A DNA stretch of 64,000 nt from Liolophura sinensis (lineage: Eukaryota; Mollusca; Polyplacophora; Chitonida; Chitonidae): positions 5,765,991 to 5,829,990 of the forward strand of contig NC_088297.1 of NCBI RefSeq assembly GCF_032854445.1. Reading direction: 5' to 3'. Positions within the stretch are counted from its first letter, which is position 1. Each line of letters begins with the position of its first letter. Shown here piece by piece: positions 13,667-33,447 of this stretch. The translations under genes were made by a program, and so were the position numbers. Under the pieces are notes generated by a model. It was not told where the DNA came from. It ran no database searches and saw only the letters and a program-made list of their open reading frames with translations.

Positions 13667-13865
13667 GAAAATTCGCGAATTGTCAACATTGACCTTCCTC
13701 AACTAACCTATCCCATGACGCCAAGCGCAGCGCGAATCTCGAAGCAGACGGTATGGAGAAATTTCTTGTCCATGTTAATTACATTCAGGTGGTTCCTACT
13801 TGGTGGTCATTTGTCTGAAAAGGGCATCTAAAACATTCCTCAGGTCGTTGGCCACCCCATAAAAG
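13667..13865 (+). promoter_or_regulatory. Heat-shock promoter of sHSP-1, decayed TATA
   Basis: A perfect three-unit heat shock element GAAAATTCGCGAA is at 13667-13679. A CCCATGACGC block resembling a ZNF143/Staf site follows at 13712-13721, then a second HSF pair GAAATTTC at 13758-13765. The TATA position reads CATAAAAG (13858-13865) where the other four copies have TATAAAA. HSF control is inferred from motif matches. Confidence 0.7.
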
Positions 13866-14040
13866 CGCGTGAGGAAAACCGCTAGGTTCAGATTGAGTTG
13901 CTAACCTGCACAGAAAATACGAGAGACGAAAGCATTTGTTCCAGTGAACAACAACAACGCACGGCTACGGTGATCCTGTGATCTTAAGTAAAGCTTGATT
14001 GTATCTAGGCATCTTGAACTATCATTGTCAAGATACTGCA

Positions 14041-14514
14041 ATAGCTTTACCCAGACTCATTGCCATTGGATATGAAGACGATCTGTGGAGTGGCCTGTCG
14101 TCCGATTTGGAGTGGATGAACCAACAAATGCGCCGAATGAACAACCAGTACAGCAGTTTGGTTCCAAATCAGCAGCCAATGGACATCGGCTGGAATGAGG
14201 CGTTCAGAATGGACAACCCCATTGTCACTGACAAAGACGGCAACAAGAAATTCCACCTCGAGTTCGACCTGCGTCAGTTCAAACCTGAAGAAATCAACCT
14301 GTCCACTGCCAACAACGTGCTGACCGTTGAGGCGAAGCACGAAGAAAAAAGCGACGGTAGATTGTCGTATCGGGAATACCGACGTCAGTACACCATCCCA
14401 GAAGGCGTCAACGTGGAAACGCTCAAGTCCAAGCTGGCCCAAAATGGCTTCCTATCCATAGAAGCTCCTGTACAGAAGAAACAAGACATGGCAATTCCCA
14501 TCAGACACATGTAA
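14041..14514 (+). pseudogene. Small heat shock protein copy 1 (sHSP-1), start codon lost
   Basis: This aligns codon for codon with the 157-residue sHSP-2, with an intact reading frame to a TAA stop, but the start position reads ATA (14041-14043) instead of ATG. A TGA stop lies in frame at 13996-13998, so no upstream in-frame ATG is available. The first in-frame ATG is at 14116, in a weak context, and would give 132 residues lacking the N-terminal 25. The alpha-crystallin domain (about residues 61-146) is complete; the C-terminal IxI motif is present as IPI, followed by RHM where the others have KHK or KHN. The G-F-L change in the LSIEAP strand replaces the valine found in all other copies. 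With the weakened TATA box this suggests a recent pseudogene; a sequencing error or use of the 14116 start are alternatives. Confidence 0.65.
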
Positions 14515-14616
14515 ATGTTCATTGCTATGTATGTCCAAGGTCCTCACCTGACCGCTGGCAGTGCCACGATGAGACAGGGAGACGTCAAACCCGGTAACGC
14601 TCACAGACGTTTGTTA

Positions 14617-14782
14617 ATGGAATAAGACTGTTTTCATACTTGTATGACCATGTTAAAAAGCACTTTATTTCACTAGAAAGTTTGAAGTTTGAGCATTACT
14701 GGAGCAAAGCCTGATCAGTATTAGCACTTTTTTGTTCTTAACTTTTTTTGTTGCATTACACATTTCTATGTGTTTGAACTTT
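14617..14782 (+). repeat. 3' UTR segment of sHSP-1, first copy of a direct duplication
   Basis: The stretch from GGAATAAGACTGTTTTCATA to ATTTCTATGTGTTTGAACTT recurs at 15349-15519. sHSP-2 has a single copy in the matching place, so the duplication is private to sHSP-1 and brackets inserted DNA. Confidence 0.85.
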
Positions 14783-15010
14783 ATAATACTGTTGCTTGTG
14801 ATTCACCTCCTTAAGACAAGAGAACTTCCAAAGGAAGTACATGCAGTAGTAGTATACGGTGGAGGAAAAGACATTGAAAACACTGTCAAGGAAAATAGCT
14901 TGAGTTTTGTATTTGTTTGACCATTTTGTGACATCATATCACATTTTTATCACTCAACATGCATATTGCCAGATTTCTGTTTTCAAATTTCATGTACAAG
15001 AGCACATGAA

Positions 15011-15342
15011 TGCCCACCTGGTCCAATCACTTCACCACAGAATCCTGTGTTTTACAAGCATTTCATCTGGTTGGAAAAAAATTCTAATAAAAATGTTATT
15101 TAATGGTCTCTCATGTGATAGCTTTCTCTGCCTTATAGGCTGGGAATGTTGGTGCATCCACGTGTGGCGCATTGTCCAAGTGTATTGGTTAACCTTCTCT
15201 CATAGTATTTGCTAGAAAGGGATGTGAAGTCTGGTGTTTTTACCATGGGCATTCCAGGCAGTGAGGGAGATGCATAAAACACCAACATGGGGATAGGTTA
15301 GCATGCTGTCTGCACCAAAACAGTGTTAAACCCGTGTCAAAC
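15011..15342 (+). repeat. Dispersed ~330-bp repeat, copy 1 (inside sHSP-1 3' UTR insertion)
   Basis: It runs from GCCCACCTGGTCCAATCACT to CAGTGTTAAACCCGTGTCAA and matches 16959-17313 at high identity with small indels. Being present in two unrelated contexts indicates an interspersed element of unknown class. Confidence 0.8.
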
Positions 15343-15348
15343 AAACAG

Positions 15349-15519
15349 TGGAATAAGACTGTTTTCATACTTGTATTACCGTGTTAAAAAGCACTTTATT
15401 TCACTAGAAAGCTTCAAGTTTGAAGTCTGAGCAGTACTGGATCAAAGCCAGATCAGTATTGGCACTTTTTTGTTCTTAACGTTTTTTGTTGCATTACACA
15501 TTTCTATGTGTTTGAACTT
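15349..15519 (+). repeat. 3' UTR segment of sHSP-1, second copy
   Basis: Second copy of the 14617-14782 segment with scattered substitutions. It continues into the tail shared with sHSP-2, including the AATAAA signal at 15572-15577. Confidence 0.85.
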
Positions 15520-15952
15520 GGGTTATGAATAATTTGTTATTGTGTACCATTTGTATGGAGACCTGTGTTAAAATAAATGTCTGTATCATCAGCTTATAAC
15601 GTTTATTTACATCTTTATCGGTCGCCAGAGCTATACTTTTGAAGACCAGAGACTTTATTGAAAGCAACGAACAGTTGTCAGTTTTTTTGTTGTTTTTTTT
15701 TTTTTTTTAGCTGATGCTGCAGAATTTTGTGTCCTGCAAAATAAAACAATAGGATTTTCATTAAAAGCATGTGTGTTCTTGTGTGTAATTTGACATGATT
15801 GTCATCTTGTCTGGTGTCAACAACAGTAGTATCGAGAATATTTCACTTATAGGCTGGTATGACAGTATAACCGCTACTTATACGTGTAACCCACAACCGT
15901 TTGCAGGTTGCTGATCTGACCTAGCCATACCTGAGGTGTTTTAAGTGCATGC
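15520..15952 (+). other. Distal 3' flank of sHSP-1 with AATAAA signals
   Basis: AATAAA at 15572-15577 is the likely polyadenylation signal, shared with the sHSP-2 copy at 19601-19606. A poly-T tract lies at 15690-15708. The similarity to the right arm ends at 15886. Confidence 0.6.
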
Positions 15953-16263
15953 GAGCCGTAGATCCAAGGTCAGTCCTGGGTCGAGTCACACCTAAGACAT
16001 TAAAAGAGGAAGTTGTAACTTCCTCACTTGGGGTTCAGCATGAAGGAGATAGTGCAACGACTGGTTAATCCGTATCATTATAGTGACTCGGGCGAGACAG
16101 CTGACTTGCCTTCGTCTCAGCGAAGAAGCACTAAATAAAAGAGCGATGGAAATCCGTCCTGCAACAAGGAGGCACATTACATGCGCACTAAGGATTCCTT
16201 CGTCGTCATATGACTGAAAAATTGTTAAGTACAATGTTAAACCCCAAGAACTCATTCACTCAA
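15953..16263 (+). repeat. Second SINE family, plus orientation
   Basis: It carries a tRNA-like head remnant (TAGATCCAAGGTCAGTCC), an internal GGAAGTTGTAACTTCCTC stem and a tail TTAAACCCCAAGAACTCATT. The same element is present in minus orientation at 48505-48870. Confidence 0.75.
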
Positions 16264-16364
16264 CTGCATGCATGATTAAGTACAGGACCGGAACTAAGCT
16301 GGCTTGTGTTGATCAGAGTTTCTGTTGATCAGAGTTTCTGTTGATCAGAGTACTACGTATGTAT

Positions 16365-16455
16365 TTATTAATTTATTTCATTGGTGTTTTACGTCGAGTC
16401 AAGTATATTTCACTTCTATGACGGCGGCCAGCATTATGGCAGGAGGAAAACTGTA
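16365..16455 (-). repeat. SINE tail, minus orientation
   Basis: TTTCATTGGTGTTTTACG, then CAAGTATATTTCACTTCTAT and CGGCGGCCAGCATTATGG are the reverse complement of the dominant SINE tail. Confidence 0.85.
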
Positions 16456-16958
16456 GAATGTGAGCTGTGTGGGTGTTTCAACTTAAACAGTCGTGATATA
16501 TTCTTTACAAGTTACCTTTGTCTTCTTCATGTGATGTATAGCAGCATGTCACAATTAGCCAGTGTATCGTCTAAAGATCAAGTGCCCCGCCAATAAGGTT
16601 GCACGTTCGAATCCAACTCTCAGTAGTTTGGGCATTCACAGGTCTACGTTTGCATTCCAGAATTCAGTCAGCACTTATGTCTGCCCGACTTTCTCATGGG
16701 CTCATAAGACTGATTAACGTCTCTTGTGAAAAGAGCAACCTTTTTGGACAATAGAATAAAACATTTTTATTTCTGTTCTGTGACGAATGATTATTTTTTA
16801 AAGTAAAGGAAAGCTAAAATGTGAAGTAAGGTTCATCATACCTACAACTGAAAACTATGCGTAAAATTATTTATTTTTTCAAATTTTTTCTAAGAGTGGG
16901 GAAAGGCATCCAAATATTTGAATACTGTGGTCGGCATCATGAACCATACTGACGGTAT
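16456..16958. other. Spacer of the inverted duplication, no gene
   Basis: A B-box-like GTTCGAATCC at about 16607 with flanking sequence suggests a decayed tRNA-derived repeat. Nothing else was recognised. Confidence 0.4.
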
Positions 16959-17313
16959 CTATGCCCACCTGGTCCAATCACTTCACCACAGAATCCTGTG
17001 TTTTACAAACATTTCATCTGGTTGGAAAAAATTCTAATAAAAATGTGTTTAATGGTCTCTCATGTGATACATACTCCATTTTAATAGCGCTTTCTCTGCC
17101 TTATAGGCTGGGAATGTTGGTGCATCCACGTGTCCCGCATTGTCAAAGTGTACTGGTTAACCTTCTCTAATAGTATTTGCTACAAAGGGGTGTGAAGTCT
17201 GGTGTTTTTACCATGGGTATTCCAGGCAGTGAGGGATATGCATAACACCAACATTGGGATAGGTGAGCATGCTATCTGCACCAAAACAGTGTTAAACCCG
17301 TGTCAAACAAACA
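16959..17313 (+). repeat. Dispersed ~330-bp repeat, copy 2
   Basis: Matches 15011-15342 end to end, with a short extra segment around 17064-17085. It lies in the spacer of the inverted duplication, outside any gene. Confidence 0.8.
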
Positions 17314-17329
17314 ACTCAACTAGTCATGT

Positions 17330-17553
17330 CATACCGGTAATAATCCACTGGCTAGGTGAGACTATCGGGCCCTTGGCCTGAGGTGTGTATTCGAATCCAT
17401 TTATCTCTGATTTACCCGCACTTTTAAGTAGTTACCTATAGAGAAATGTAGAGGGGTTTTCCGGAGTCCGGTTTCCTTCAGCCATAAGCCTGCCACCATA
17501 CAAGTGAAAAATTATGGAGTGCGACGCTATGAGCATCAATCAAATAAATAAAT
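17330..17553 (+). repeat. Diverged SINE, tRNA-like head and tail
   Basis: A head-like segment (about 17345-17400, with TTCGAATCC) and a degraded core (GGAGTCCGGTTTCCTTCAGC) lead to a tail GAGCATCAATCAAATAAATA. It appears to be an older copy of the dominant family. Confidence 0.6.
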
Positions 17554-18773
17554 AATGCATTTTAGTATTTCTCGTACTTACAACGGCCAGTCTTCTGAAT
17601 TATTGCCCATGATTAAACAAAATAAACATTATACATGTTCATCTTAATTACCTAAATCTGATACAGATCATAATATTTATGAGAACATATATGAAGTCAG
17701 AAGATTTTCAGAGGTGTTCTAAAAATGTTTTTAAAAATCCACAATGCTTATTAACAGAATAAATAGTAAATGGTATTTCTCACTACCGACACACTTACTT
17801 GGTAATTTAGGAACTCCCCTGCACCATGGGTACTAACACGGTTCCATTATTAAGTGTACGTGGTCGGGCATGGGCTTTAGAAAGCTCAAACAAAACTGCC
17901 AGATAAATTGCATTAAAGCTATAGTTTTCAAACGACGGAAGTTTCATTGAGTTTGGCAGTGAGGGCGAATGTCGTGGACAGTCGTCCTCGGCTTTCTGCG
18001 GTCCTTTTCGCCTTTATCTTCCCTAATCCAGAAATCAGAGAATGTACCGAATAGAATTAGGCCATCTGATGTGGAACAGATTCTTTACTCTCGATATTTG
18101 GAAGATGTTCTCTTAATTAATCGGGTTTCGATAACGAAAAAATTATGTTCACTGAAATCTTCTCAGTCTTACAGGACAATGATTGTCTGGAGCCGATTAT
18201 ATTGACAGTTTTGCGAAATGCTCCGAAAATCAGGAGTTGTCGGCCTTGAATCAGGAAAATCTGTTTGTCTATACTTATGTAACTGACCAGAGATTTTTTT
18301 TCCTTTGAACACCAGTCCTGCTTAGCGAACACCTCATTTTCATTTTCAGTCCTTGCCAATTTGGTTCATTCTACTTCAACGGTGTTCAGATGAACTTGTA
18401 ACAGTTTTTATGTAACAGTTTTATCTTTATTATTAGTACACGTTTTGGGAGAATAGAAAAGTTTATGGTTGTCCCACATATTCAGCTGTTTTTACGAAAA
18501 ACAGCTTTTCAATAAAACTTACGTCCCCCCTTGCCGACCACCTCCCCCCCCCACCACCCTATAGCCAAATATCTCCAAATGTGTTTCCAGGTACAAGTAG
18601 TTCCTCTTTAGTAATTCTCCGCAAGGTATTTTTTCCTTCTGATCTCACAGAAATACTTTTCTCTGGGATTAACATATTAAGGCAAGAAGAAACACACCTG
18701 GAGAAGAAAATCATGTACGAGGAAACCAATTTGGCACCTAGAAAACCTTTTAATAGGATAACAAGCTTTTCGT
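17554..18773. other. Spacer of the inverted duplication, no gene recognised
   Basis: A 78-codon plus-strand ORF at 17969-18205 matches no family. A C-rich stretch occurs at 18524-18560. Confidence 0.45.
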
Positions 18774-18900
18774 GCCGAGGACAAAACGTTAGCACCACAA
18801 AGGAAACTTCTCCCCGTTCAGAATATCTGTAGTAGCGCGAGGACAAAACGTTAGCACCACAAAGGAAACTTCTTCCCGTTCTGAATATCTGTAGTAGCGC
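18774..18900 (+). repeat. Two tandem copies of a 62-bp unit
   Basis: CGAGGACAAAACGTTAGCAC recurs at 18776 and 18838, followed in both by ACAAAGGAAACTTCT and GAATATCTGTAGTAGCGC. It is a local tandem duplication with about three differences. Confidence 0.85.
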
Positions 18901-19287
18901 GGAGATATCTTGGCCCAGGATCAATAACTATGCTTTCCTAGACTCAAGTTATTTTTAAGTCAAAGTTAGTACTAAGTTCACAGTTTTACTGTGCCAAATA
19001 AAATTAGTAAATTACTTTAGAAATTTTGCTGTGGACTTTGGTAACAAAAGCTGAAAATTAGATTAATGTTTACGGTAAGTTCACAAAATAATGCCACAAG
19101 TAGGCTGACTTAAGTCTAAGACAGCTTCGTGATCCAGCGGCCAGACGATAATCCTTGCCTTTTGGCACATTCCATGTCCGGTGTTCATTTTCAGAAATTT
19201 GATGTAGTTTCACGAAATCCACGTCGTCTATTAATTCCAGTAACTGATTTCCCCAGCGAGTCACCGTCCATGCGTAATTTACTTATT
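18901..19287. other. Spacer, no gene recognised
   Basis: No recognisable feature was found up to the edge of the right duplication arm. Confidence 0.45.
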
Positions 19288-19600
19288 CACGTATAGGTAG
19301 CGGTTATACTGTCATACCAACCTATGAGTGAAATATTTTCGACACTACTGTTGTTTCCACCAGACAAGATGACAATCATGTCACATTACACACAAGAACA
19401 CACACGCTTTTAATGAAAATCCTATTGTTTTATTTCGCAGGACACAAATAAAATTCTGCAGCATCAGCTAAAAAAAAAACAAAAAAACAAAAAAAACTGA
19501 CAACTGCTCGTTGCTTTCAATAAAGTCTCTGGTCTTCAAAAGTATAGCTCTGGCGACCGATAAAGATGTAAATAAACGTTATAAGCTGATGATACAGACA

Positions 19601-19606
19601 TTTATT
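19601..19606 (-). terminator. AATAAA polyadenylation signal of sHSP-2
   Basis: TTTATT on the plus strand, AATAAA on the minus strand, 320 nt beyond the sHSP-2 stop codon. The same signal is present in the sHSP-1 copy at 15572-15577. Confidence 0.6.
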
Positions 19607-19926
19607 TTAACACAGGTCTCCATACAAATGGTACACAATAACAAATTATTCATGACCCCAGTTCAAACACATAGAAATGTGTAATGCAACAAAAAAAGTT
19701 AAGAACAAAAAAGTGCTAATACTGATCAGGCTTTGCTCCAGTACTGCTCAAACTTCAAACTTTCTTGTAAAATAAAGTGCTTTTTAACATGGTCATACAA
19801 GTATGAAAACAGTCTTATTCCATTAACAAACGTCTGTGAGCGTTACCGGGTTTGACGTCTCCCTGTCTCATCGTGGCACTGCCAGCGGTTAGATGATCGC
19901 CCTTGGACATACATAGCGATGAACAT

Positions 19927-20400
19927 TTACTTGTGTTTGATGGGAATGGCCATGTCTTGTTTCTTCTGTACAGGAGCTTCTATGGATAGGACGCCATTAT
20001 GGGCCAGCTTGGACTTGAGCGTTTCCACGTTGACGCCTTCTGGGATGGTGTACTGACGTCGGTATTCCCGATACGACAATCTACCGTCGCTTTTTTCTTC
20101 GTGCTTCGCCTCAACGGTCAGCACGTTGTTGGCAGTGGACAGGTTGATTTCTTCAGGTTTGAACTGACGCAGGTCGAACTCGAGGTGGAATTTCTTGTTG
20201 CCGTCTTTGTCAGTGACAATGGGGTTGTCCATTCTGAACGCCTCATTCCAGCCGATGTCCATTGGCTGCTGATTTGGAACCAAACTGCTGTACTGGTTGT
20301 TCATTCGGCGCATTTGTTGGTTCATCCGCTCCAAATCGGTGGCCAACGTTGGCCAAAGATCGTCATCAAATCCAATAGGCACGTATCGGGATAGAGCCAT
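19927..20400 (-). CDS. Small heat shock protein copy 2 (sHSP-2)
   Basis: A 157-residue, intronless alpha-crystallin family chaperone. The start is the ATG of MALSRYVPIG; the frame stays open a little further upstream but without another ATG. The N-terminal 60 residues hold an FDDDLW patch and an MNQQMRRMNNQY helix, likely for oligomer contacts. Residues 61-146 form the alpha-crystallin domain, with KFHLEFDLRQFKPEEI, LTVEAKHEE and YREYRRQYTIP; the last arginine of YREYRR aligns with Arg120 of human alpha-B-crystallin. NGVLSIEAP is the conserved closing strand. IPI near the end is the IxI motif that docks on neighbouring subunits. These proteins bind unfolding clients without ATP. It lies tail to tail with sHSP-1 and has its own heat-shock promoter, so heat or stress induction is expected. 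Confidence 0.93.
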   Translation of the reverse strand: MALSRYVPIGFDDDLWPTLATDLERMNQQMRRMNNQYSSLVPNQQPMDIGWNEAFRMDNPIVTDKDGNKKFHLEFDLRQFKPEEINLSTANNVLTVEAKHEEKSDGRLSYREYRRQYTIPEGVNVETLKSKLAHNGVLSIEAPVQKKQDMAIPIKHK

Positions 20401-20579
20401 TGTCCTTTCGTTGCAACGGTGATTCACTTGCTAGGTTCAAGATGTCTAGATTCCCCCAATGCCTAGATCACACGATCAACGCAGTGCGTTAATGTTGAGC
20501 ACGAACGGATGCTTTCGTCTCTTGTATTCGCTGTACAGAGTAGCAAATCAATCTGAAGTCTGCGTGTCTCCTCACACAC

Positions 20580-20772
20580 TTTTATAGCCTGGCCAACGAC
20601 CAGGTGAATGTTCCCGATGCGTCTGCAGGTCAATGACGGATCGAGCCTGTACTAGGATGTAAACATCAACAAGAAATTTCTCGATGCTGTTTCATTTAAG
20701 ATTCGCGCTGCGCGTGGCATCATGGGATACGGTCAGCTGTGAAAGGTCAAGGTTAGCAGTTCACGAAGTTTC
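20580..20772 (-). promoter_or_regulatory. Heat-shock promoter of sHSP-2
   Basis: On the minus strand, a perfect heat shock element GAAACTTCGTGAA (plus coordinates 20760-20772) precedes CCCATGATGCCACGCG (20711-20726), a ZNF143/Staf-like block, then GAAATTTC (20673-20680) and TATAAAA (20580-20586), about 180 bp before the ATG. Confidence 0.8.
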
Positions 20773-20780
20773 TCCGAATT

Positions 20781-21630
20781 TTTGTGTACGCGTTTTTTCG
20801 TAATTTTATCGGAGTTGTGTGTTTGAATATAGCTTATAGCAGGGTGGAAGTTTGATGTTGATAACTATATTTTGGGTGACTTTTATTTTCAAACCTAAAT
20901 TTAGAATGGCTTTGATTTTCAAGACAGGAGGCTCTGCTTCCGTCCTTAGAGCGCATAAATGTATTCAACAACAACCCATGTTGTGTAGGCGAAAATGCTT
21001 AATTTTGGTTCGATATTTCAGCATTTTATTTTGCCATCATCGCAAGTGATAAAACTCGCATCAGTGGATCTACTGGATTTACAACGCAACAACTTTCCTG
21101 TCTCCTCAGCCAGAGAAGTTCATTTATATTTTTTATCGCGATACACAAATAAGACGATCAATTGTCATATTCTGTGGTATGAAGGATAACAAAGCTTGTA
21201 GAAAAAAAAAAATAAAAAATAAAAAAAATGTTCATTTTATCCACACAGTAGGCCTATACTGTTGATTTGCAATACAATGGACCATTTACACACGGATACA
21301 GTACATTAATACTGGGTGGGGGAGAGGGGAAGTGTATAACAGAAACATGAAAGAAGAAGGTACGTGTAATATTAGACAACCCATATAGTGTATGATAATA
21401 AGTGTTCAGACAGTAATGTATCAACACAGAGCAGAATGAACATTTTACCAATGATTGTTAAATTTAGCTTGTATGTAGAATTAGATCACAACTGACAACA
21501 ACAAATTCATGGCACAAACTATCCTCAAGGGTTATTGCTGATAATGTCAATTCTTTTTCTGTGTTTTTCTCATTCTTGTTCAAAATGTTACATCGAAACC
21601 AGCTGGGTTAATTCTGATATAATAATTACC
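20781..21630. other. Intergenic, no gene recognised
   Basis: Contains an A-rich stretch at 21200-21230. Short ORFs match nothing. Confidence 0.5.
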
Positions 21631-21921
21631 TATTTGATTTCAGGGGGCCTCCGTGGCTCAGTCGGTTAGCGCGCTAGCACAGCGTAATGACCCAGAAGCC
21701 TCTCACCAATGCGGTCGCTGTGAGTTCAAGTCCAGCTCATGCTGGCTTCCTCTCCGGCCGTAAGTGGGAAGGTCTGCCAGCAACCTGCAGATGGTCGTGG
21801 GTTTCCCCCGGGCTCTGCCCGGTTTCCTCCCACCATAATGCTGGCCGCAGTCGTATAAGTGAAATATTCTTGAGTACGGCGTAAAACACCAATCAAATAA
21901 ATAAATAAATATTTGATTTCA
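21631..21921 (+). repeat. Full-length tRNA-derived SINE with 12-bp target duplication
   Basis: The element at 21643-21909 has a GGGGGCCTCCGTGGCTCAGT start with A-box, a B-box GAGTTCAAGTCC, the CCACCATAATGCTGGCCGC core and an (AAATAAAT)n tail. TATTTGATTTCA flanks it on both sides (21631-21642 and 21910-21921), a perfect target-site duplication showing insertion by retrotransposition. Confidence 0.95.
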
Positions 21922-23006
21922 CAATATGGACAACATTTGGTAATAAACACCATAATATTAGTAATTTCTGGTAAACGATTGTTAAATCTATATGTCTTAA
22001 AGCCAGAGACAGCACCTAACTAATGTTTATGTACATTGAAAGACAACCATTCAAAGTACCTTAACCCAGCGTTAAATGTTTTGTAGATTTTTTCAACCCA
22101 GTAAAACTTAAGTGAAACTTCATGTTGTCACAGCTTCAGCGCATATCTATTATCGACATCTGGACAGAGTCACTTTAGCGGTAGCTCTCTAACGTCGCAG
22201 GTCTTTCTAGTATCATAGTGTAGGCAGTAGACAATGGCAGATTAAAATTGTGGACTTCACTGATGAAGGACCAAGTGATAAATAGCTTTCTGGGAAACTG
22301 GACATACTGTAAGGATGTTTCTTCCACTTGAACTGCTTGAACTGTTCATACAATGGGCCTACTGTATCACTTATGCAGTTTACGAGTAGCCTGCAGATGC
22401 ACAGCCGGAGTATTCCTGGTTCAGGTGGTAGCCTCCGGAGGGCTTGTGACTATTAAATGTTTACAAAATTACAATAGGATAGTTGTCCAACTGGATTCGT
22501 GCTTTGTTCTGACACAAATGGAAATAAGTCTAAGCACCACTGAGGCTGATCGACGTATTTGACTGTCGCTGCATTTTGTACTTCAGTTTTGGAGTGGTGG
22601 CTTCTAAGATGAGAGCAGTGCTGACCTAGTTATCACAGACGTCAGAGAAAGCAACTTGGCTTAAACACAATGTTTCAATGAATTTACTGTATTTTATAAA
22701 AGAAAACAGAAAAAAACACCTCTTGCATGCGAGAAAGACAAAAGGGCAAAGTTTAAATTCTTCATTTCTAATAAATTCAGAGAAAAAAAAAATTATAAGA
22801 TTTAATTAATTTTAAGCTTTGTCTGATGAGATGCCATCTTCTCATTTCCACAAACCTTTGGTATTCCTATTGAATTAATCACTGACCCAGATATTTGTTA
22901 TTTAGCAACTACATGCTGACTTAATGCTAACATGAATGAAAAAAAAAATGTATTTGTATAAATTGAACAGCGTGTCTAAACAGGCCTAAGGTCTAATGGG
23001 GAGATG
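21922..23006. other. Intergenic, no gene recognised
   Basis: Short ORFs only, such as 22353-22562 on the plus strand; none matches a known family. Confidence 0.5.
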
Positions 23007-23056
23007 AATATGTTTATTTATTTATTTGATTGGAGTTTTACGCCGTACAGATGAAT
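23007..23056 (-). repeat. SINE tail fragment, minus orientation
   Basis: TTTATTTATTTATTTGATTG, then GAGTTTTACGCCGTACAGAT, is the extreme 3' tail of the dominant SINE reversed; the rest is absent. Confidence 0.75.
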
Positions 23057-23121
23057 ATCTTTTGGGCCTGGAAATATGTTTTAGCCAGGGGCTGTCTTGT
23101 CCTTTAAGTAAATATCTATTG

Positions 23122-23126
<5 letters not shown>

Positions 23127-23169
<43 letters not shown>
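23127..23169. repeat. (AT)n microsatellite
   Basis: About 21 perfect AT dinucleotides. ORFs crossing it on either strand are artefacts. Confidence 0.95.
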
Positions 23170-23172
<3 letters not shown>

Positions 23173-23216
23173 ATTTCAAGGGAAGATGGACTATATGTTG
23201 TATTTTTTACATACAT

Positions 23217-23396
23217 TTATTTTATATGTGGGCCTACAGGTACGGATTCATATTTACAAATGGTTTAGGTGATGCTTTACCTACATCTATTTTACATGTA
23301 GGCCTACATGTACCGATTTATTTGTGCAAATGGTTTAAATTTATTTTATATGTAGGCCCACAGGTAACAATTTATACCTACAAATGGTTTAAAGAA
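23217..23396 (+). repeat. Three imperfect tandem copies of a ~60-bp unit
   Basis: TTTTATATGTGGGCCTACAG, TTTTACATGTAGGCCTACAT and TTTTATATGTAGGCCCACAG each begin a unit that ends in ACAAATGGTTTA or GCAAATGGTTTA. Confidence 0.75.
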
Positions 23397-23754
23397 TGTT
23401 TAACAATAAGAATTCCATTTCTGATTCTTAGTTCAGTGCTAAAGCCATTTGAAAAGAAATCAAATAACGTCATCCAGTCCAGCACTTGTAATGTGTGTTG
23501 TTGATGTACGTGTTGGGTGAGGGCACTGTCCTGTCAGCAAGGAGCAGTTTCTCGGTCCGTCTGCAAAAAACACAGGAGGTCAATGTACGTGCTTGCACGC
23601 AGGTGTTCAATCAGGGAAAATGTTCGGCTGCCAAAACCAGGTCATTCTGATGCACACATAGCGTATTAGTCCTTCAAATCTGCACAAAATTGTAGGGAAG
23701 TGCAAAAATATCATACACGGTCACTTTGACAATATTGACCTAGTTAACTTGATA

Positions 23755-23872
23755 CCCCATGATGCTTTGCGAAACCAGGTACTGGTTCTGTCTGGTCGAC
23801 GACCTCGCGACGAAAGTTCTAGACGTGATTGGCGAGAAATTTCTGTATGTTGTTAAACGGTACGGTATAAAA
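23755..23872 (+). promoter_or_regulatory. Heat-shock promoter of sHSP-3
   Basis: CCCATGATGCTTTGCG at 23756-23771 is the ZNF143/Staf-like block. A near-perfect heat shock element GAAAGTTCTAGAC is at 23812-23824, a second pair GAAATTTC at 23836-23843, and TATAAAA at 23866-23872, about 200 bp before the ATG. The distal heat shock element found in the other copies is degenerate here. Confidence 0.78.
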
Positions 23873-24067
23873 GCTGGATAAAACGCCCATCTTCAGTTCA
23901 AGCTCATAGCGATACACTTGGCAGAAGACCGAAGTCAGAAGCCTGCGATCACATACTCGTGCACGGTAACGCTCCCATCGTGACAGACATACACATAGGT
24001 GTGCGGTGATATTATCAGACAGTTTGATTGGATTTATACGTTAGCAAACTCAGCTGTACGATACATC

Positions 24068-24541
24068 ATGTCTCTTTCATTATTTGTGCCGTCTGGTTAT
24101 GAGGATGATCTGTGGAGGAGTTGGGCCTCCGATCTACAGCGAATGAACCAACAAATGCGGGGTCTGAATGACAGATATGGCTGTTTGGTGCCACCTCAAC
24201 CACACGACGTTGCGTGGAACGAGGCGTTCAGAATGGACAACCCCATTGTCACCGACAAAGACGGCAACAAGAAATTCCACCTCGAATTCGACCTGCGTCA
24301 GTTTAAACCTGAAGAAATCAACCTGACAACTGCCAACAACGTGCTGACCGTTGAGGCGAAGCATGAAGAAAAAAGCGAAGGGCGAACGTCATATCGGGAA
24401 TACCGACGTCAGTACACCATCCCAGAAGGCGTCAACGTGGAATCGCTCAAGTCCAAGCTGGGCCAGAATGGCGTCCTATCCATAGAAGCTCCTGTACAGA
24501 AGAAAGAAGACGTGGCCATTCCTATCAAGCACAATAAATGA
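24068..24541 (+). CDS. Small heat shock protein copy 3 (sHSP-3)
   Basis: 157 residues, intronless. The ATG of MSLSLFVPSG is chosen because it aligns with the start of the other copies; no in-frame ATG lies further upstream in the open stretch. It has the same plan as sHSP-2: a variable N-terminus (here GYEDDLWRSWASDLQRMNQQ), an alpha-crystallin domain from about residue 62 to 147, and the IPI docking motif before KHNK. It is the most diverged core of the five, with LTTANN, SEGRTSYREYRR and KKEDVAIPI. Its closest relative by 3' UTR is sHSP-4, since both end in an AAAATAAAATATTTGG polyadenylation region. It should be a stress-induced, ATP-independent chaperone in the cytosol or nucleus. Confidence 0.93.
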   Translation: MSLSLFVPSGYEDDLWRSWASDLQRMNQQMRGLNDRYGCLVPPQPHDVAWNEAFRMDNPIVTDKDGNKKFHLEFDLRQFKPEEINLTTANNVLTVEAKHEEKSEGRTSYREYRRQYTIPEGVNVESLKSKLGQNGVLSIEAPVQKKEDVAIPIKHNK

Positions 24542-25631
24542 GCGGAGTAGATTCAGGAATTTATGTCATTCTAATGATTACTGGAACAGTTGATGACCAT
24601 GCGCTGTCCTCATTACTGAAAAGATGATCGTTATATACGCTTGGCTAAGATCAGAGAGGACTTGGGTTCAAAGCCGGTAAAAGACAAACTTTTCTATATA
24701 CTGTAGTTATATTAGTCTTTGTATTGACAATGCATTCTGTCAACCGGCTGGAGAAAGTGCTGATACCGATATCACGTTGAGCGTGTGGAATGTAAATTTC
24801 ACGTTTAAAATCCGCTTTCAATATGAAATTAAATGTGATCCTGGGATATTTCTAAATCTCTCGTATGTGCATGAACTTGAAATTAAATGCGATTTATTTT
24901 GCACAAAACTGTCAATTTTCTCTCGAAATTTAATACATGCAATCGCAAACCTCTACAATGAACGTACATGGAACTACTTGTGTATAACCAGAAATCGCCA
25001 TGTGCTCTTTCTTTAATGTCGAAATATGTCAAGCACAAACTCCGATCAGTATTTTGTCTTTTCCGTTTTACGTTTACGATCCAGCATCGTTTTGTATTGT
25101 AGAAGCTGTGATGTCTTCGCGGCTGGACCATGCAGGTTGTATTCTTATTTTGTATTGTTTATAGACACTTTTATAGTGCATGGTTTACTAATGGTACCTG
25201 ATCAGCTGTTCTAAATATGATTTATGCAGCTTATGTAATATATATAAATTATGTTTTGTCTGTCCCACAAAATAAAATATTTGGACGTTGAAGTGAAACT
25301 GTTGTTGTTGTTCGAACTTCTGATTCATTTCATACGTTTTAATTTGAGTACCCTTTTTTCTTAAACTGTTCTCTCGAAAAGGACTAAATAGAAATTGTTT
25401 TGCTTTATACACGTATATTTTAGATATAGTACTACATAGTACATATCTAAAATATATACCTGAGGGAATGACGCATTTTGTCTGAATTATATGGATATAA
25501 TTTTACATTCTTTTGAAAAGGTTAAGAAAGTAGGGTACTGTGTGTTATTATGCCATTGTTGTTTAGCGTCATTGATACTCAAGAATTTTTTTTTAGCGCA
25601 ATACTGTATCTATCTGGTTGTGTTAATAACT
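24542..25631 (+). other. 3' UTR and flank of sHSP-3
   Basis: AATAAA at 25271-25276 would give a 3' UTR of about 740 nt. The sequence around it matches the sHSP-4 3' end. A tRNA-like B-box (GGGTTCAAAGCC) at about 24664 may mark an old repeat. Confidence 0.55.
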
Positions 25632-25930
25632 TCATTGCTACTCGGGGGCCTCCGTGGCTCAGTTGGTTAGCGCGCTAGCGCAGCGTAATGACCCAGGAGT
25701 CTCTCACCAATGCGGTCGATGTGAGTTCAAGTCCAGCTCATGCTGGCTTACTCTCCGGCCGTATGTGGGAAGGTCTGCAGCTACCTTCGGATGGTCGTGG
25801 TTTCCCCCGGGTTCTGCCCGGTTTCCACCCACCATAATGCTGGCCGCCGTCGTATAAGTGAAATATTCTTGAATACGGCGGAAAAACACCAATCAAAAAA
25901 AAAAAAAAAAAAAAAAAATCATTGCTACTC
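25632..25930 (+). repeat. Full-length SINE with poly-A tail and perfect 12-bp target duplication
   Basis: The element at 25644-25918 has the head, core and tail of the dominant family but ends in about 27 A. TCATTGCTACTC flanks it exactly at 25632-25643 and 25919-25930. The intact duplication and pure poly-A tail indicate a young insertion. Confidence 0.95.
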
Positions 25931-26734
25931 AAGAATTTTTCACATGTAATAATGGATCTATTTGGTTGTTGTTGAACTTCAGAGATACTCAAAAAAATTT
26001 TCTATTATAATAATGTATCGATATTTTTTTTTTGATGCCATTGATGCTCAAGGTCTTCTTTCTATATGGTTATTTTTTGACGTCACTGACATTCAAGAAT
26101 TGTTTAGATACAATTTATAAGCGTTTATATATTTGTTTGCTCGAACGTCAAATACAATAGTCGTCAATTGTCAGGGATAGAGGAAAAGGCGACCTTTGCA
26201 CCTTTGGTGAAACACGGAACAAAGGTAAGACTCTTCTCCACGCAGAAGCCTCTTCAACCGACTGTTAGCTGTCTATGCGTTAAAACAGACATTAGTACAA
26301 CAGCCGTCAACCAACAAGAACGTTACAGGTCAGTAATCCCACGGCCAATTCTCAGAATGACTTTTAATACAAACTGTCAAAGGACTAAGAACATAAATAA
26401 AGTACGAAAGTAGGACGGAATCATGCAAAAGAAGCAGTCAGCAGTTACGGCAGGTATTGTAATCGCTTGATTGTTTTTATTACGCCATCAAGAAGTTTTC
26501 ACTTGTGCGATCGAGCTCATCTCATACATTAAAGAGCTACTACAGTGTGAAGACCTGAATGTCTTGAAAGGAGGGTGAAATGAAAAGGATTAAGATAGTC
26601 TGAATTGACTTCCTAAATTGTTAAAAAATACCAATGTATTAAAACCGCCGTCACTAGTTTCGCGGGATAGTTTGGGTAGGAAGTTTTCTGTCGTTTACAG
26701 TTTTACTTAGTCTGTGTCATGCAAGAACACTTGG
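25931..26734. other. Intergenic, no gene recognised
   Basis: Repeats of ACTCAAGAATTTTTT or similar phrases occur at 25925-26105. An 81-codon ORF at 26168 matches nothing. Confidence 0.45.
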
Positions 26735-26868
26735 CGTCACCCATCCCTGACGTATAACAACAAATGGCGTCGCACTTTCACACGCGCATTACGTCATTCC
26801 AGCATAACTGCATTGCTCGACGTCATGTCTACTTGACTCGTCGTCACATAAGGACCATTATCACGTCA
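26735..26868. promoter_or_regulatory. Dense cluster of CGTCA/TGACG half-sites
   Basis: CGTCA or TGACG occurs at about 26735, 26748, 26791, 26821 (as GACGTCAT), 26842 and 26864, six sites in 134 bp. The density suits a CREB/ATF-type regulatory element, but no associated gene is recognised. Confidence 0.35.
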
Positions 26869-27370
26869 TAACAGGAAAACTTTACGGAAACTGCCGAAGA
26901 TTTTGTTTTTGAGGACTCTTCAGTTATACAAGTTAAATAGTGCTATTCATCGTAAATCTTTTTAACCCTGGTGTTAGCTCTGTCCCCTGGGGTATCGTTC
27001 ATATCATTTTAATATTTCTGCGTAGCTTCTCTTAGGACTAAAGTATCACTTTAACAATTCTAAGCCCCAAAATTTGTGACGGAAAAAGCTTTCTATTCAA
27101 CATATACCGCGCGGATATATAAAAGTAATCTTTCTACAACGGACATAACCCTTCAACTGCAGAGAAAATCTATAACGGAGAAAAGCTTTCTCTTACATGA
27201 GGAAAACGTTACACCATGGAAAAAACGAGTCCGTATACACATTCATTCATTGAGAAATCCTTTCTGTCATGGGAAAACTTTCCTGCTGTATGCATGGGCT
27301 AACTTTACTACCACGGAGAAAACCTTTCTACTATGCATAATTCAACCTTTCTACGATGTGTAGAGAATGC
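26869..27370. other. Intergenic leading into a minisatellite
   Basis: From about 27070 phrases such as GGAAAACTTTCC and GAGAAAACCTTTCTA recur loosely and may be diverged edge copies of the 29-bp array that follows. Confidence 0.4.
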
Positions 27371-28090
27371 ATTTACATAACAAAGTGCATGGAGAATTCC
27401 TTTACATAACAAAGTGCATGGAAAAAAACCTTTACATAACAGTGCATGGAGAAAACTTTTATATAATACTGTGCATGGAGAAAACGTTTAACCAATACTG
27501 TGCATGGTAAAAACTTTTAAACAATACTATGCATGGAGAAACCCTTTACATAATACTGTGCATGGAGAAAACCTTTACATAATACAGTGCATGGAGGATG
27601 CCTTTACATAATACAGTGCATGGGAAATGCCTTTACATAAGACTGTGTATGGAGAATGCCTTTGCATAATACCGTGCATGGAGAATGCCTTAACATAATA
27701 CAGTGCATGGAGAATGCCTTAACATAATACTGTGCATGGAGAAAACCTTTACCTAATACAGTGCCTGGAGAATGCCTTTACACAATATAGTGCATGGAGA
27801 ATGCCTTTATATAACACAGTGCGTGGAGAATGCCTGTACATAACACAGTGCATGGAGAATGCCTTTACATAATACAGTGCATGGAGAATGCCTTTACATA
27901 ACACAGTGCATGGAGAATGCCTTTACATAATACAGTGCATGGAGAATGCCTTTACATAACACAGTGCATGGAGAATGCCTTTACCTAATACAGTGCATGG
28001 AGAATTCCTTTACATAATACAGTGCATGGAGAATGCCTTTACACAATATAGTGCATGGAGAATGCCTTTATATAACACAGTGCGTGGAGA
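27371..28090 (+). repeat. Minisatellite, 29-bp unit, about 25 copies
   Basis: The unit reads ACAGTGCATGGAGAATGC followed by CTTTACATAAT. GTGCATGG start points at 27906 and 27935 give a 29-bp period. Copies are most uniform in the centre (27830-28020) and decay outward, as expected for an array expanding internally. Confidence 0.95.
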
Positions 28091-28719
28091 AAAAAAATCC
28101 TTAACAAAAGTAAAAACTTTCCTATCGCAGAAAAATCCTTTCTACCGCCTATATAATACATCTATTATCAAAGTGGATTGTGGCTGTGTGTGTATGTGTA
28201 TGGTGTTAAACAGCAATGAAATAAATATTAATATCATTACACGCAAAACTAGTTTGGTGAGAAGAAAACCGTGTTCCGTGGACCACTCAGATGGCGCGGG
28301 TCCTGCGGGCAGGGTTATTAAGGTCGTGGTTTAATCGGACGCTATCAGCCACCACAATTTACACACTATGTGGCAGGCATGAAATACCTCACACGAACAT
28401 CGCATTTCAAATGAAGTGGAAACGTTTCGATTGGTGTAGAGGTTTTCATTTCGTTATGACCAATGAAAGGAATATATACATGTATTTGGATATACGTGTG
28501 CATATGCGCAGACTTTCTGTTTCAAGGAAATAATAATTTGATCAGTAAGAAATTCTTCTGAAGGCTTATTTTGCACGAAGATGTTGAGAACGACTTATTC
28601 TCTATTTGGGTTAAAACCATCTTGTGATTGATTTGATTGGTTGATTGATTAATTGGTTGGTGTTTAATGTACTCAAGAATTTTTCATATATAGCCCGGCG
28701 TTGATGGGTCGGACTTATG
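28091..28719. other. Intergenic with a SINE tail scrap
   Basis: 28650-28700 (TTGGTTGGTGTTTAATGTAC, then TCAAGAATTTTTCATATA) resembles the SINE tail reversed. No gene was recognised. Confidence 0.45.
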
Positions 28720-29157
28720 GGTGGAGGAAAACGTAGTGCCTGGAGAATACCAGTGTCCTTAACCGGTGGAGAAAGTGCCCGGAGAAAGACAATGTCATTC
28801 ACCTGTGGAGGAAGTGCATGGAGAATACCAGTGTCCTTCACCAGTGGAGGAAGTGCTCGGAGAAAACCAGTATCCTTCACCAGTAGAGAAAGTGCACGGA
28901 GAAAACCCGTATCCTTCACCAGTGGAGAAAGTGCACGGAAAAAACCGGTGTCATTCACCGGTGGAGAAAGTGCTCGGAGAAAACCAGTATCCTTCACCAG
29001 TGGAGAAAGTGCACGGAAAAAACCAGTGCCCTTCACCGGTGGAGAAAGTGCACGAAAAAAAACAGTGTCATTCACCGGTGGAGAAAGTTCCCGGAGAAAG
29101 CCAGTGTCCTTCACCAGTGGAGAAAGTGCTCGAAGAAAACCAGTGTCATTCACCCAA
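28720..29157 (+). repeat. Minisatellite, 39-bp unit, about 11 copies
   Basis: The unit reads CCTTCACCAGTGGAGAAAGT then GCACGGAGAAAACCAGTGT. TCCTTCA starts at 28834, 28873 and 28912, a 39-bp period. Because 39 is a multiple of three, long ORFs run through it in several frames on both strands; these are by-products of the period, not evidence of a gene. The phrase AGTGCAYGGAGAA is shared with the 29-bp array nearby. Confidence 0.92.
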
Positions 29158-29267
29158 AAGAAGAGGTTATTTTTTATAGGGGGCCCAGGTTTGCAAGCTC
29201 TTACACCGAGTAATTATTTTTTGTTAGATGCTTGAATAAATGAAAAGATCTTGAGTGTGTTATATAT

Positions 29268-29395
29268 AGTTATTTATTTATTTGATTAGTGTTTTACGCC
29301 GTACTCAAGAATATTTCACTTATACGACAGGGGCCAGCATTATGGTGGGAGGAAACCGGGCAAAGCCCGGGGGAAACCCACGACCATCCGGAGTG
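29268..29395 (-). repeat. SINE tail and core, minus orientation
   Basis: It runs from TTATTTATTTGATTAGTGTT through GGCCAGCATTATGGTGGGAG to CCCACGACCATCCGGA, the reversed dominant SINE without its head. Confidence 0.9.
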
Positions 29396-29890
29396 TGCTA
29401 TAAAAGCTGTGTCACAAACGTATCACATAAGGCCTTTATGTAGCTTTGAAAGTGCATTTTTACATATCAAACTTAAGGTGAAGGACAGCAGTGGCCTATT
29501 CATGAAGGCCTACCGTACAGTCATAATAATAACGCTGGTAGGCCTATATATATTTACTAATATGTCGGACCAACATACCATTCAATTTATGAAGCAGGCG
29601 AACGGACACTGCACAGGCCGATGTAACACACATTAAATATAACAAATAAAGATTCAAAACATGAGTTGTTTACTTCTGGAAAACCCCGTGATAAATCCTT
29701 ATGTTGTTGTTGTTGTACATTTGCATGAAAGAACATGCAGTTTTGAAATTCTCTGACGGATGAAACCTTACTAATCAAAAGCAGTGGTTCATCCAGTGAA
29801 AGTATTCAACAGTATTATAATAAACTGATACACATGTAACAACTAAGTTAATGATTATGTTTTATAGATGCAATTGGAAAGGAAATCACA
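29396..29890. other. Intergenic before the sHSP-4 promoter
   Basis: Short ORFs only; nothing else recognised. Confidence 0.5.
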
Positions 29891-30046
29891 GAAAATTCTT
29901 GAACTGTCGCCATTGACCTAGTTAGCTGACCTTATATCCCATGATGCACCGCGACCCAATGTTTACATCCAGCTCGGCCGGCGTGACCGCGTGTAAGTTG
30001 CAGACAGCGTCGAGAAATTTCTACATGTCGCTAACATATTATAAAA
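29891..30046 (+). promoter_or_regulatory. Heat-shock promoter of sHSP-4
   Basis: Perfect heat shock element GAAAATTCTTGAA at 29891-29903, a TTGACCTAGTTAGC block, then CCCATGATGCACCGCG at 29938-29953 (the best ZNF143/Staf-like match of the five), GAAATTTC at 30014-30021 and TATAAAA at 30040-30046, about 200 bp before the ATG. Confidence 0.82.
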
Positions 30047-30247
30047 GCTTCGACTAGACTCCAACGGCGTTAGACATAACCGACTACAGCGTAGACGGAA
30101 GACAGACGACATAAGCCTGTATAAGCGAGCTTTAGTCTTTCACGCACAGCGTTGAGAGTTTATCGTTCAAGTCAAGTCAGCCGGCAGTATATTGTGTGTA
30201 CCAGGCCTGTATAGAACGTGTGTTGCAACCTATACCACTCCGTTATC

Positions 30248-30718
30248 ATGGCGCTTTCATTGTTTGTACCCTATGGTTATGAAGATGATTTGCTGGGGAG
30301 CTGGGCATCTGAAATTCAGCGAAGGAACAACCAAGTTCGTCGGGCGAATAGCCCACACAACAGAATGGCGCAAACTCAGCCGTTGGACATCGGCTTGAAT
30401 GAGGCATTCAGAATGGACAACCCCATCGTCACCGACAAAGACGGCAACAAGAAATTCCACCTCGAGTTCGACCTGCGTCAGTTCAAACCTGAAGAAATCA
30501 ACCTGTCCACTGCCAACAACGTGCTGACCGTTGAGGCGAAGCATGAAGAAAAAAGCGACGGTAGATTGTCGTATCGGGAATACCGACGTCAGTACACCAT
30601 TCCTGAAGGCGTCAACGTGGAATCGCTCAAGTCCAAGCTGAACCAAAACGGCGTCCTATCAATAGAAGCCCCGGTACAGAAGAAACAAGACGTGGCCATT
30701 CCCATTAAACACAATTAA
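30248..30718 (+). CDS. Small heat shock protein copy 4 (sHSP-4)
   Basis: 156 residues, intronless, starting at the ATG of MALSLFVPYG, which aligns with the other copies. Its N-terminus is distinct (EDDLLGSWASEIQRRNNQVR), while the alpha-crystallin domain (about 61-145) is nearly identical to the others, with REYRRQYTIP and the IPI C-terminal motif before KHN. At the DNA level it is a mosaic: the middle carries AAGCATGAAG and GAATCGCTC as in sHSP-3, but the 3' end (GAAGCCCCGGTACAGAAG) matches sHSP-5. This pattern suggests gene conversion. Function as an ATP-independent holdase is known for the family. It has the best heat-shock promoter of the set. Confidence 0.94.
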   Translation: MALSLFVPYGYEDDLLGSWASEIQRRNNQVRRANSPHNRMAQTQPLDIGLNEAFRMDNPIVTDKDGNKKFHLEFDLRQFKPEEINLSTANNVLTVEAKHEEKSDGRLSYREYRRQYTIPEGVNVESLKSKLNQNGVLSIEAPVQKKQDVAIPIKHN

Positions 30719-32225
30719 GTGAATCTGAACGGCATACATGGTGTCTGTTTGCCAACAGCGAGTGAGTGTACAGACATGGCTTTGAACCGGTCAGCTCAGA
30801 CAAGACATTGCTTCAAAACCGTAATATGGTTGGACCCTTGACTTTGTTTAAGTGTGTATTCTCTTGAGTTTTGCCTTAATGTAAGCTTCTGTGTGTTGCT
30901 TTTAGTGCTCTGTTTATATCATGAAGTAAAAACAAACTGTTAGCATGCAAAAAGGATGTATTGAAGATCAAACAAAAATGCTTATATTAAAGAGACCTTT
31001 TTGCATAACGTAGAGAAATATGGTAAAGTAATGTACAGCCAGCAACTCTAGAAAGTTATTGTGTAAGCTGTCAATTCGTGTTCTGCATATACATTCGTAT
31101 TGCACAATGTTTTAGGCCATGGAGTGCAAAATGATCTTTAATGTTTTCCCCTTATATACATATTCTATTATGTAAAATTTCAAATGTTTGTCAGTATTTT
31201 TTATATATATATATTCGTACATGCTTGCTTCTCAAAATACAGGAGTTAACGAACAGTATTGAGTTCTTTTAATACTTTTTTGTAATTTGCAATACTTAGT
31301 TTATGTTAGTGTGGATGCGAATGTGCATGGTGGTGAAAGTTAAGTCTTCAACTAATTATATAAATTGAAATTTGTTACAGCGCTCCAAAATAAAATATTT
31401 GGGCTGAAAATGAAAATTGGCTGTGATTGTGCTTAGTTTCATTTCGTTGTTTTACTTACACCCTTGTATTGTATGGATATACATTGGTGAAGTTGTATAT
31501 GCGGAGAGTGTAGTAATGTCTGCTAATGTTAATGTAGACTCCACAAGGCTAGTTTTGACTTTTGTCAGAATTCCAAATTTTGATTTACTCGCTTAATTTG
31601 AAAATCTAAGCAGTATTAATGTAGGCAGACATCCTATTACAACTTGGGCTTTTATGGCTTTTATGGATTAACCTATGTGGCTTATTGACTTCTTAAGCTG
31701 ACAAAAAGTCAAAGATTGGTGTGTGGACTTACCAACTTATTTGATTGGTGTTTTTAAATACATGCCATACTTAAAAATGAACATTGCACTATATATGTTT
31801 TTTTTTACATGTACAAGTTACAAATGTATGCATAATAAATCAGTGATTAACTGACAATATATGCGTTAATAAATAAGGTGCGCATGCCTGTCAACCTTTG
31901 GGACACATGAGGTGCGGGTTCAAAACCGGTCTTGGAAAACAACTACTTTAATTCTTCAACCTTTTTAACCTCCTCTGCAACCAATACTTCGAAATATTCT
32001 CAGAAAACTATGGTATTGAGGGTAATTTGCACAGATTTATGAAGCTTACTTCTATAATGACAAACAAATAATTTTATTTGTTATTCTATTTTATTATTAT
32101 ATCATATTCATGATAATTATAGGCATAAAAGAAAACAGTGTTTTAGTGGTTCAAAAGATTGAAGATTTACAGTAAGTAAATTTAAAACACATGGAGTTTT
32201 CCTGTTCATGGTATTCCTCGACTTA
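30719..32225 (+). other. 3' UTR and flank of sHSP-4
   Basis: AATAAA at 31389-31394 lies in a stretch shared with sHSP-3 and would give a 3' UTR of about 680 nt. A tRNA-like piece (GGTGCGGGTTCAAAACC) is at about 31911. No other gene was seen. Confidence 0.55.
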
Positions 32226-32351
32226 ATTACAGCTGGTGGGTTTCCCCCGGGCTCTGCCCGGTTTCCTCCCACCATAATTCTGGCCGCCGTCGTATCAGTG
32301 AAATATTGTTGAGTACGGCGTAAAACACCAATCAAATAAATAAATAAACAA
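32226..32351 (+). repeat. SINE, 5'-truncated
   Basis: Starts at GGTGGGTTTCCCCCGGGCTC and ends CACCAATCAAATAAATAAAT; core and tail of the dominant family. GACTTAATTACAGCTGG-like sequence precedes it and AATTACAGCTGGGG follows it, consistent with a target duplication of AATTACAGCTGG. Confidence 0.9.
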
Positions 32352-33058
32352 TTACAGCTGGGGATTCAAATTTTATCGTCTTACAGATATCCATACCTTA
32401 ATCACATCAACTAAAATGAAAGTAGTTAATTAGAACTCACCTGCTGCTTAAAACATGACTCGGTATGATCAAGTATGAACTCGGCTAAATCTGCACGATA
32501 CACATGTACACTGTATTCACTTATACCATCAATAACACCTCAGTCTACATGTAGACCTACCACTTGGTTTGTCAGTGAATGCTACACGTCGATCACTTGG
32601 TATGTGGGATTCTAACGTAATGATCCCGGGTTTTTTTTTTTAAATATTACGTATATTGTTGAGAGATCAGAAAATTTCACCAGCATTCACTATTAAATTT
32701 TACCTGAATGGTAGATAGAATTGTCATTTTTTAAATTCGATACATGCATGTAGACTCATACATGTACCTTCAAATGTACATATAGCGGTATAGGGGGAAA
32801 AAAAACAAACAAAAAAAAACGCATCACTGCCCGCACTTCAGCGAGACATTGTCCTGATTTATAAAGTATTCAGAAGAAATGGATCATATATACTAGCATA
32901 ACCGTGCGTCCACACGCGTGCGCAGTTTTATCCATTTTAACAATCTTATTTGTTTATGCTACTGGTACAAGATTATCCTGTACGCCTATACATGCATCTG
33001 TTGTGCATACCGCAGTCAGAGTAAAAATAGCACAGACGCTATTTTCAGATTTATGGTA
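32352..33058. other. Intergenic before the sHSP-5 promoter
   Basis: Poly-T at 32632-32641 and A-rich stretches at about 32800-32818. No gene was recognised. Confidence 0.5.
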
Positions 33059-33231
33059 GAAAATTCGTGAACGCCTACTTTCATTGACAAAACTACGCTA
33101 ACCTTATCCCATAATGCCACGCGCGGAGAGAAATTTGCATACAGCTCGGTCAACGACCTCGACAAAAATAGCAGGTCTACGGCGTCTGGAATTTTCTCCA
33201 TGCCATTTGCCTGTCGCAACCAGATATAAAA
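33059..33231 (+). promoter_or_regulatory. Heat-shock promoter of sHSP-5
   Basis: Perfect heat shock element GAAAATTCGTGAA at 33059-33071, CCCATAATGCCACGCG at 33108-33123 (ZNF143/Staf-like), GAATTTTC at 33189-33196 and TATAAAA at 33225-33231, about 217 bp before the ATG. Confidence 0.82.
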
Positions 33232-33447
33232 GCAACAGAGTAAAGCTATCGTGTTCAGTGCAACCAGTGCTTCCGTTGGCTTTAGACGATACGTGTCATT
33301 TGTGGACTTTACAGTCAGACTTTTCCTACAAAAGTGCAGTTTTTGATAACTGTCAGTTGTACAAAGCGAGCTGCTTTTAATTTTCAAGAGGCCACGTGCG
33401 TTTACTATTAACAGTATTTGGAGTAGCTCAGTTATTTAGCAAGTACC

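Follow-up and report, generated by a model that had tools for sequence, protein, structure and literature searches.

ZNF143/Staf is a constitutive activator of small nuclear RNA (snRNA) and housekeeping genes, and metazoan heat-shock promoters typically place two clusters of heat shock elements (HSEs), the sites of HSF, close upstream of a TATA box. At the Drosophila hsp promoters, HSF is joined by GAGA factor, an arrangement in which a constitutive opener is combined with an inducible activator. Mouse CCT1 (Tcp1/Ccta), a chaperonin gene regulated by HSF1/2 and ZNF143/ZNF76, offers an incomplete precedent for control of one chaperone gene by both HSF and Staf-family factors (reviewed in PMC9117761). 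The HSE of CCT1, however, lies in the first intron, and its heat induction is weak. Here, we consider a 64-kb window (the whole stretch of DNA analyzed, C3:5765991-5829990) of a 609-Mb animal genome, to which our genomic searches were confined. The window contains five small heat shock protein (sHSP) genes, whose promoters share the metazoan two-cluster layout but depart from it by including TTGACC and an invariant block resembling a ZNF143 site between the HSEs. Unlike at CCT1, the candidate sites for both factors stand together in one compact heat-type promoter.

All five genes (at 14.1, 19.9-20.4, 24.1, 30.2, and 33.4 kb) encode an HSP20 domain and were recovered among the 25 matches of a genome-wide HSP20 search, from which 16 regions were retrieved; genes a, c, and e match PF00011 with E values of 1e-18 to 1.6e-19. 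The original prediction was of a promoter module shared by all five, and this observation is real, with corrections. Exactly five matches to CCCATRAYGC are present in the window, where a Markov model predicts about 0.3, one in each sHSP promoter as had been described (cores CCCATGACGC at 13712; CCCATGATGC at 20717-20726 on the minus strand, 23756, and 29938; and CCCATAATGC at 33108). The perfect HSE GAAnnTTCnnGAA likewise recurs in four promoters, and its near-perfect counterpart is found at gene c (Table 1). HSEs built from three or more inverted nGAAn units are present near the TATA box in four of the five promoters, whereas the proximal HSEs are mostly of the two-unit form GAAnnTTC. The block was said to lie between two HSEs, which is not the case at gene c, since there the near-perfect HSE is downstream of the block and no distal HSE is recognizable. 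The spacing from distal HSE to block, given as about 33-37 bp, is 32, 33, 34, and 36 bp within the window but is not strictly fixed, being 23 bp in one copy on chromosome C13. The core itself is part of a longer element than first described, TAYCCCATRAYGCnnnGCG, whose terminal GCG is present in all 11 copies that we consider below, and TTGACC is an additional shared element between the distal HSE and the block.

At the scale of the genome, the block is present in 11 of 11 genes of one sHSP clade, spread over three chromosomes (five genes on C3, five in tandem on C13, and one on C1). When the 11 promoters are aligned, five conserved segments follow one another in an unchanging order: distal HSE, TTGACC, TAYCCCATRAYGCnnnGCG, proximal HSE, and TATA box. 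Because this alignment had been cut around the block, we repeated it from the coding start, using 900 bp of upstream DNA from eight genes. The best-conserved 15-mer is again the block, with a mean pairwise identity of 0.85 compared with 0.25 overall, followed by the proximal HSE (0.70), the distal HSE (0.69), and the TATA box (0.68); TTGACC is also among the conserved elements. It is absent from one C13 copy, and thus is not essential to the module.

Such likeness could in principle reflect nothing more than the shared ancestry of tandem duplicates evolving without selection, as every carrier belongs to one clade and the C13 copies are 94-100% identical at fourfold-degenerate sites. Between loci, however, identity at fourfold-degenerate codon positions is only 43-67% and that of the upstream DNA about 0.25-0.32, yet the block stands at 0.85-0.87 and persists in order with the HSEs and the TATA box. 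The likeness of the block is therefore not due to recent copying; an explanation by ancestry alone is very improbable and largely refuted, and the conservation of the block is most simply read as purifying selection.

Genome-wide searches also set the module apart from chance. With expected counts taken from Markov models, the genome contains 22 instances of the strict form TCCCATRATGCNNYGCG, where 1.5-1.9 would be expected in all; 9 belong to these sHSP promoters. We find nine cases in the 609 Mb of a strict HSE with the block following within 18-48 bp, and seven of them are the sHSP promoters; the remaining two, on C1 (30746559 and 75503229), are near chance (about 0.45 expected). We do not rely on a reversed-pattern control of this search because the reversed pattern is richer in CpG. 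A block at C2:17608639 that has TTGACC and HSE-like sites close by was considered as marking a further heat-shock gene, a candidate rejected because no recognizable gene was found there.

The published Staf-binding site (SBS) consensus is YWCCCRNMATSCMYYRCR (PMC5006282). The sHSP block shares with it the CCCAnNATGC core, the A/Y/Y preference, and the GCG tail, and differs from it in having G at the M position (10 of 11 blocks), in lacking the ACTACA extension of the SBS1 form, and in its setting, which is a TATA-type stress promoter rather than a housekeeping or snRNA gene. The likeness claimed in the original prediction is not established by the consensus alone, which does not discriminate; what sustains it is conservation across three loci, a genome-wide enrichment of sites with Staf-like preferences, and a ZNF143-type gene whose recognition helices match. 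Enrichment was assessed with the pattern TCCCANNATGCNNYGCG, which leaves two core and two tail positions free. Of its 61 matches in the genome, 52 lie away from the sHSP promoters, compared with an expectation of 11-13. Among these 52 sites, the base following ATGC is A in 36 (p=6e-9), and the next one is a pyrimidine in 34 (p=0.02). At the position preceding ATGC, 23 sites have A, 15 have C, and 13 have G, compared with roughly 4, 3, and 2 expected (2.2 for G), and T is seen only once, with about 3 expected. Apart from the acceptance of G, these preferences fit the Staf consensus. Staf-like sites in this genome thus form a class that tolerates A, C, or G but not T before ATGC, G being the form of the majority of the sHSP blocks.

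A gene of the ZNF143 type is located at C6:73944147-73947637. Identity to the human ZNF143 fingers is 74, 88, and 85% for its three finger exons (at most 54% elsewhere in the genome), and its recognition helices are near-identical to the human ones, those of fingers 2-6 being identical; a PDB comparison returned no solved ZNF143 structure among its results. ZNF143 is thus the likely factor of the block, a supported though unproved assignment. We assign a probability of about 0.6 to the reading that the block is a functional SBS2-type site for this orthologue, within a heat-inducible promoter inherited from the ancestor of one sHSP clade.

Several observations weigh against that reading. The 11 carriers are paralogues, and so provide one evolutionary case rather than eleven. 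The window blocks match only 13-16 of the 18 positions of the unweighted published consensus, and chance alone would give 2.2 matches at 16 or more positions per 64 kb; the mismatches include the G where the consensus has A or C and, in several blocks, a purine at its first Y. The SBS1 form is rare in the genome (3 matches, about 0.7 expected). Selenocysteine tRNA (tRNA-Sec) and U2 are classic vertebrate Staf targets, and no such core was found upstream of tRNA-Sec or of three U2 genes in this genome.

The deviating G-type core, together with the many C2H2 genes in the genome, might instead point to another binder, such as a different C2H2 or a THAP-type protein of overlapping specificity; constraint on the block is clear, whereas the identity of its binder rests on motif similarity. 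We regard this as unlikely, since the 52 other sites show the same A/Y/Y-GCG preferences while accepting G, A, and C alike, and the conserved 3' GCG corresponds to the tail of the Staf consensus. The block also contains a TGATG half-site within ATGATGC, with TGATGCAAC in the C1 copy and TGACGC in gene a, which would suit a C/EBP-ATF composite (ATF4-type, TGATGCAAY) or a half-site resembling the cyclic AMP response element, and would place these genes under the integrated stress response as well as the heat-shock response. The AA required after TGATGC is not conserved, however (CA, AC, TT, and AG occur), and the CCC before and GCG after it are invariant although a composite site needs neither, making this very unlikely.

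The snRNA genes bear on a further alternative, namely that the block is a core-promoter element like the proximal sequence element (PSE). The U6 genes carry CCCATCATGC at about -64, between the octamer and the TATA box and near the PSE position, as such a reading would favor, but the sHSP blocks sit 103-147 bp upstream of the TATA box, and U2 and tRNA-Sec lack the block and share a different, ACACGG-type element at the PSE position. We consider this the least probable of the explanations; as a control on Staf usage, the snRNA and tRNA-Sec genes give a mixed result, because U6 has CCCATCATGC near the PSE position and U2 and tRNA-Sec do not have it. The U6 genes form an array of at least 48 copies (C8:16687180-16752830) in units of 1.0 or 1.4 kb, with the octamer and CCCATCATGC immediately preceding the PSE region.

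Taking the block as a ZNF143 site, the ancestral promoter would have had the order distal HSE, TTGACC, SBS, proximal HSE, and TATA box, and would have been kept as the clade spread to three chromosomal loci. ZNF143 would occupy its site constitutively, hold the promoter open, and aid assembly of the initiation complex at the TATA box; upon heat stress, HSF trimers on the flanking HSEs would then release full transcription. Binding by each factor and their cooperation are inferred; the conserved ZNF143-like site beside the HSEs of all 11 genes suggests two normally separate gene switches acting together on these stress genes; TTGACC, which resembles a nuclear-receptor half-site, could supply a third input. 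The proposed logic of constitutive opener plus inducible HSF is all that would be shared with the GAGA system, as its factor and site are unrelated to the ZNF143-like block. In human cells, ZNF143 has a supporting role in transcription initiation (PMC11118474). More tentatively, ZNF143 may have been recruited in this lineage as the standing partner of HSF in a dedicated type of sHSP promoter, the module remaining intact at three loci. If so, this would be an HSF promoter with a conserved, sequence-specific constitutive partner other than Drosophila GAGA factor, and one chosen per gene family (sHSP rather than HSP70 or HSP90). Natural variants of the module exist as well: one copy is missing the distal HSE, another lacks TTGACC, and in a third the block has decayed.

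As a rule for heat-shock genes generally, the pairing finds no support. The block is missing from the other sHSP loci (on C5, C6, and C7, and at C13:2.7 Mb and C3:5.3 Mb), save for a CCCATCACGC variant near one C7 gene; it was not found in the proximal promoters of seven HSP70 genes (on C10 and C1); and the 4.3 kb between two HSP90 genes contain HSEs and no block. The pairing is therefore particular to a single sHSP clade, and our literature searches found no report of HSF-ZNF143 pairing at sHSP genes. The seven HSP70 promoters have two HSE clusters before the TATA box, as in the sHSP layout, and TTGACC in five cases; at the place of the block, they carry a conserved CACGTGrTGTAAACA (E-box plus forkhead-like).

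Table 1. Positions of the sHSP genes and their promoter elements in the window.
Feature	Gene	Position	Strand	Sequence or remark
Distal HSE	a	13667..13679	+	GAAAATTCGCGAA
TTGACC element	a	13689..13694	+	
ZNF143-like block	a	13709..13727	+	TATCCCATGACGCCAAGCG; most diverged copy
TATA box	a	13859..13865	+	ATAAAAG
sHSP gene	a	14116..14514	+	HSP20 domain
sHSP gene	b	19927..20400	-	157 aa
TATA box	b	20579..20586	-	
Proximal HSE	b	20606..20613	-	GAACATTC
ZNF143-like block	b	20711..20729	-	TATCCCATGATGCCACGCG
TTGACC element	b	20745..20750	-	
Distal HSE	b	20760..20772	-	GAAACTTCGTGAA
TTGACC element	c	23726..23731	+	
ZNF143-like block	c	23753..23771	+	TACCCCATGATGCTTTGCG; no distal HSE
Near-perfect HSE	c	23812..23823	+	GAAAGTTCTAGA; downstream of block, one mismatch
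Proximal HSE	c	23836..23843	+	GAAATTTC
TATA box	c	23866..23873	+	
sHSP gene	c	24068..24541	+	157 aa
Distal HSE	d	29891..29903	+	GAAAATTCTTGAA
TTGACC element	d	29913..29918	+	
ZNF143-like block	d	29935..29953	+	TATCCCATGATGCACCGCG; among G-type blocks nearest to Staf consensus
Forkhead-like	d	29960..29967	+	TGTTTACA
Proximal HSE	d	30014..30021	+	GAAATTTC
TATA box	d	30040..30047	+	
sHSP gene	d	30248..30718	+	156 aa
Distal HSE	e	33059..33071	+	GAAAATTCGTGAA
TTGAC element	e	33084..33088	+	degenerate, second C missing
ZNF143-like block	e	33105..33123	+	TATCCCATAATGCCACGCG
Proximal HSE	e	33189..33196	+	GAATTTTC
TATA box	e	33225..33232	+	
sHSP gene	e	33448..33918	+	156 aa

Immediately 3' of the block, genes a (13728-13734) and b (20704-20710) and the C1 copy carry CAGCGCG, possibly another site, in whose place the C13 copies have ACGCGCAA. 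The forkhead-like sequence of gene d is present at 20658 as well. The first sHSP gene of each array lacks the start codon of its sisters, having ATA in gene a (13980-14116) and CTG in the first C13 gene; at gene a, the lost start codon together with the most diverged block suggests decay. Elsewhere in the window, an open frame at 28717-29235 (+) contains SARRKPVSFTSGE-type repeats and has no Pfam match, and repetitive open frames at 57355-58317 (-) (MLLSDIICDTIVAHYAACSLD...), also lacking a Pfam match, are likely a tandem repeat array. An intronless gene at 1475-2797 (-) encodes an ankyrin-repeat protein of 440 amino acids (Pfam Ank_2).

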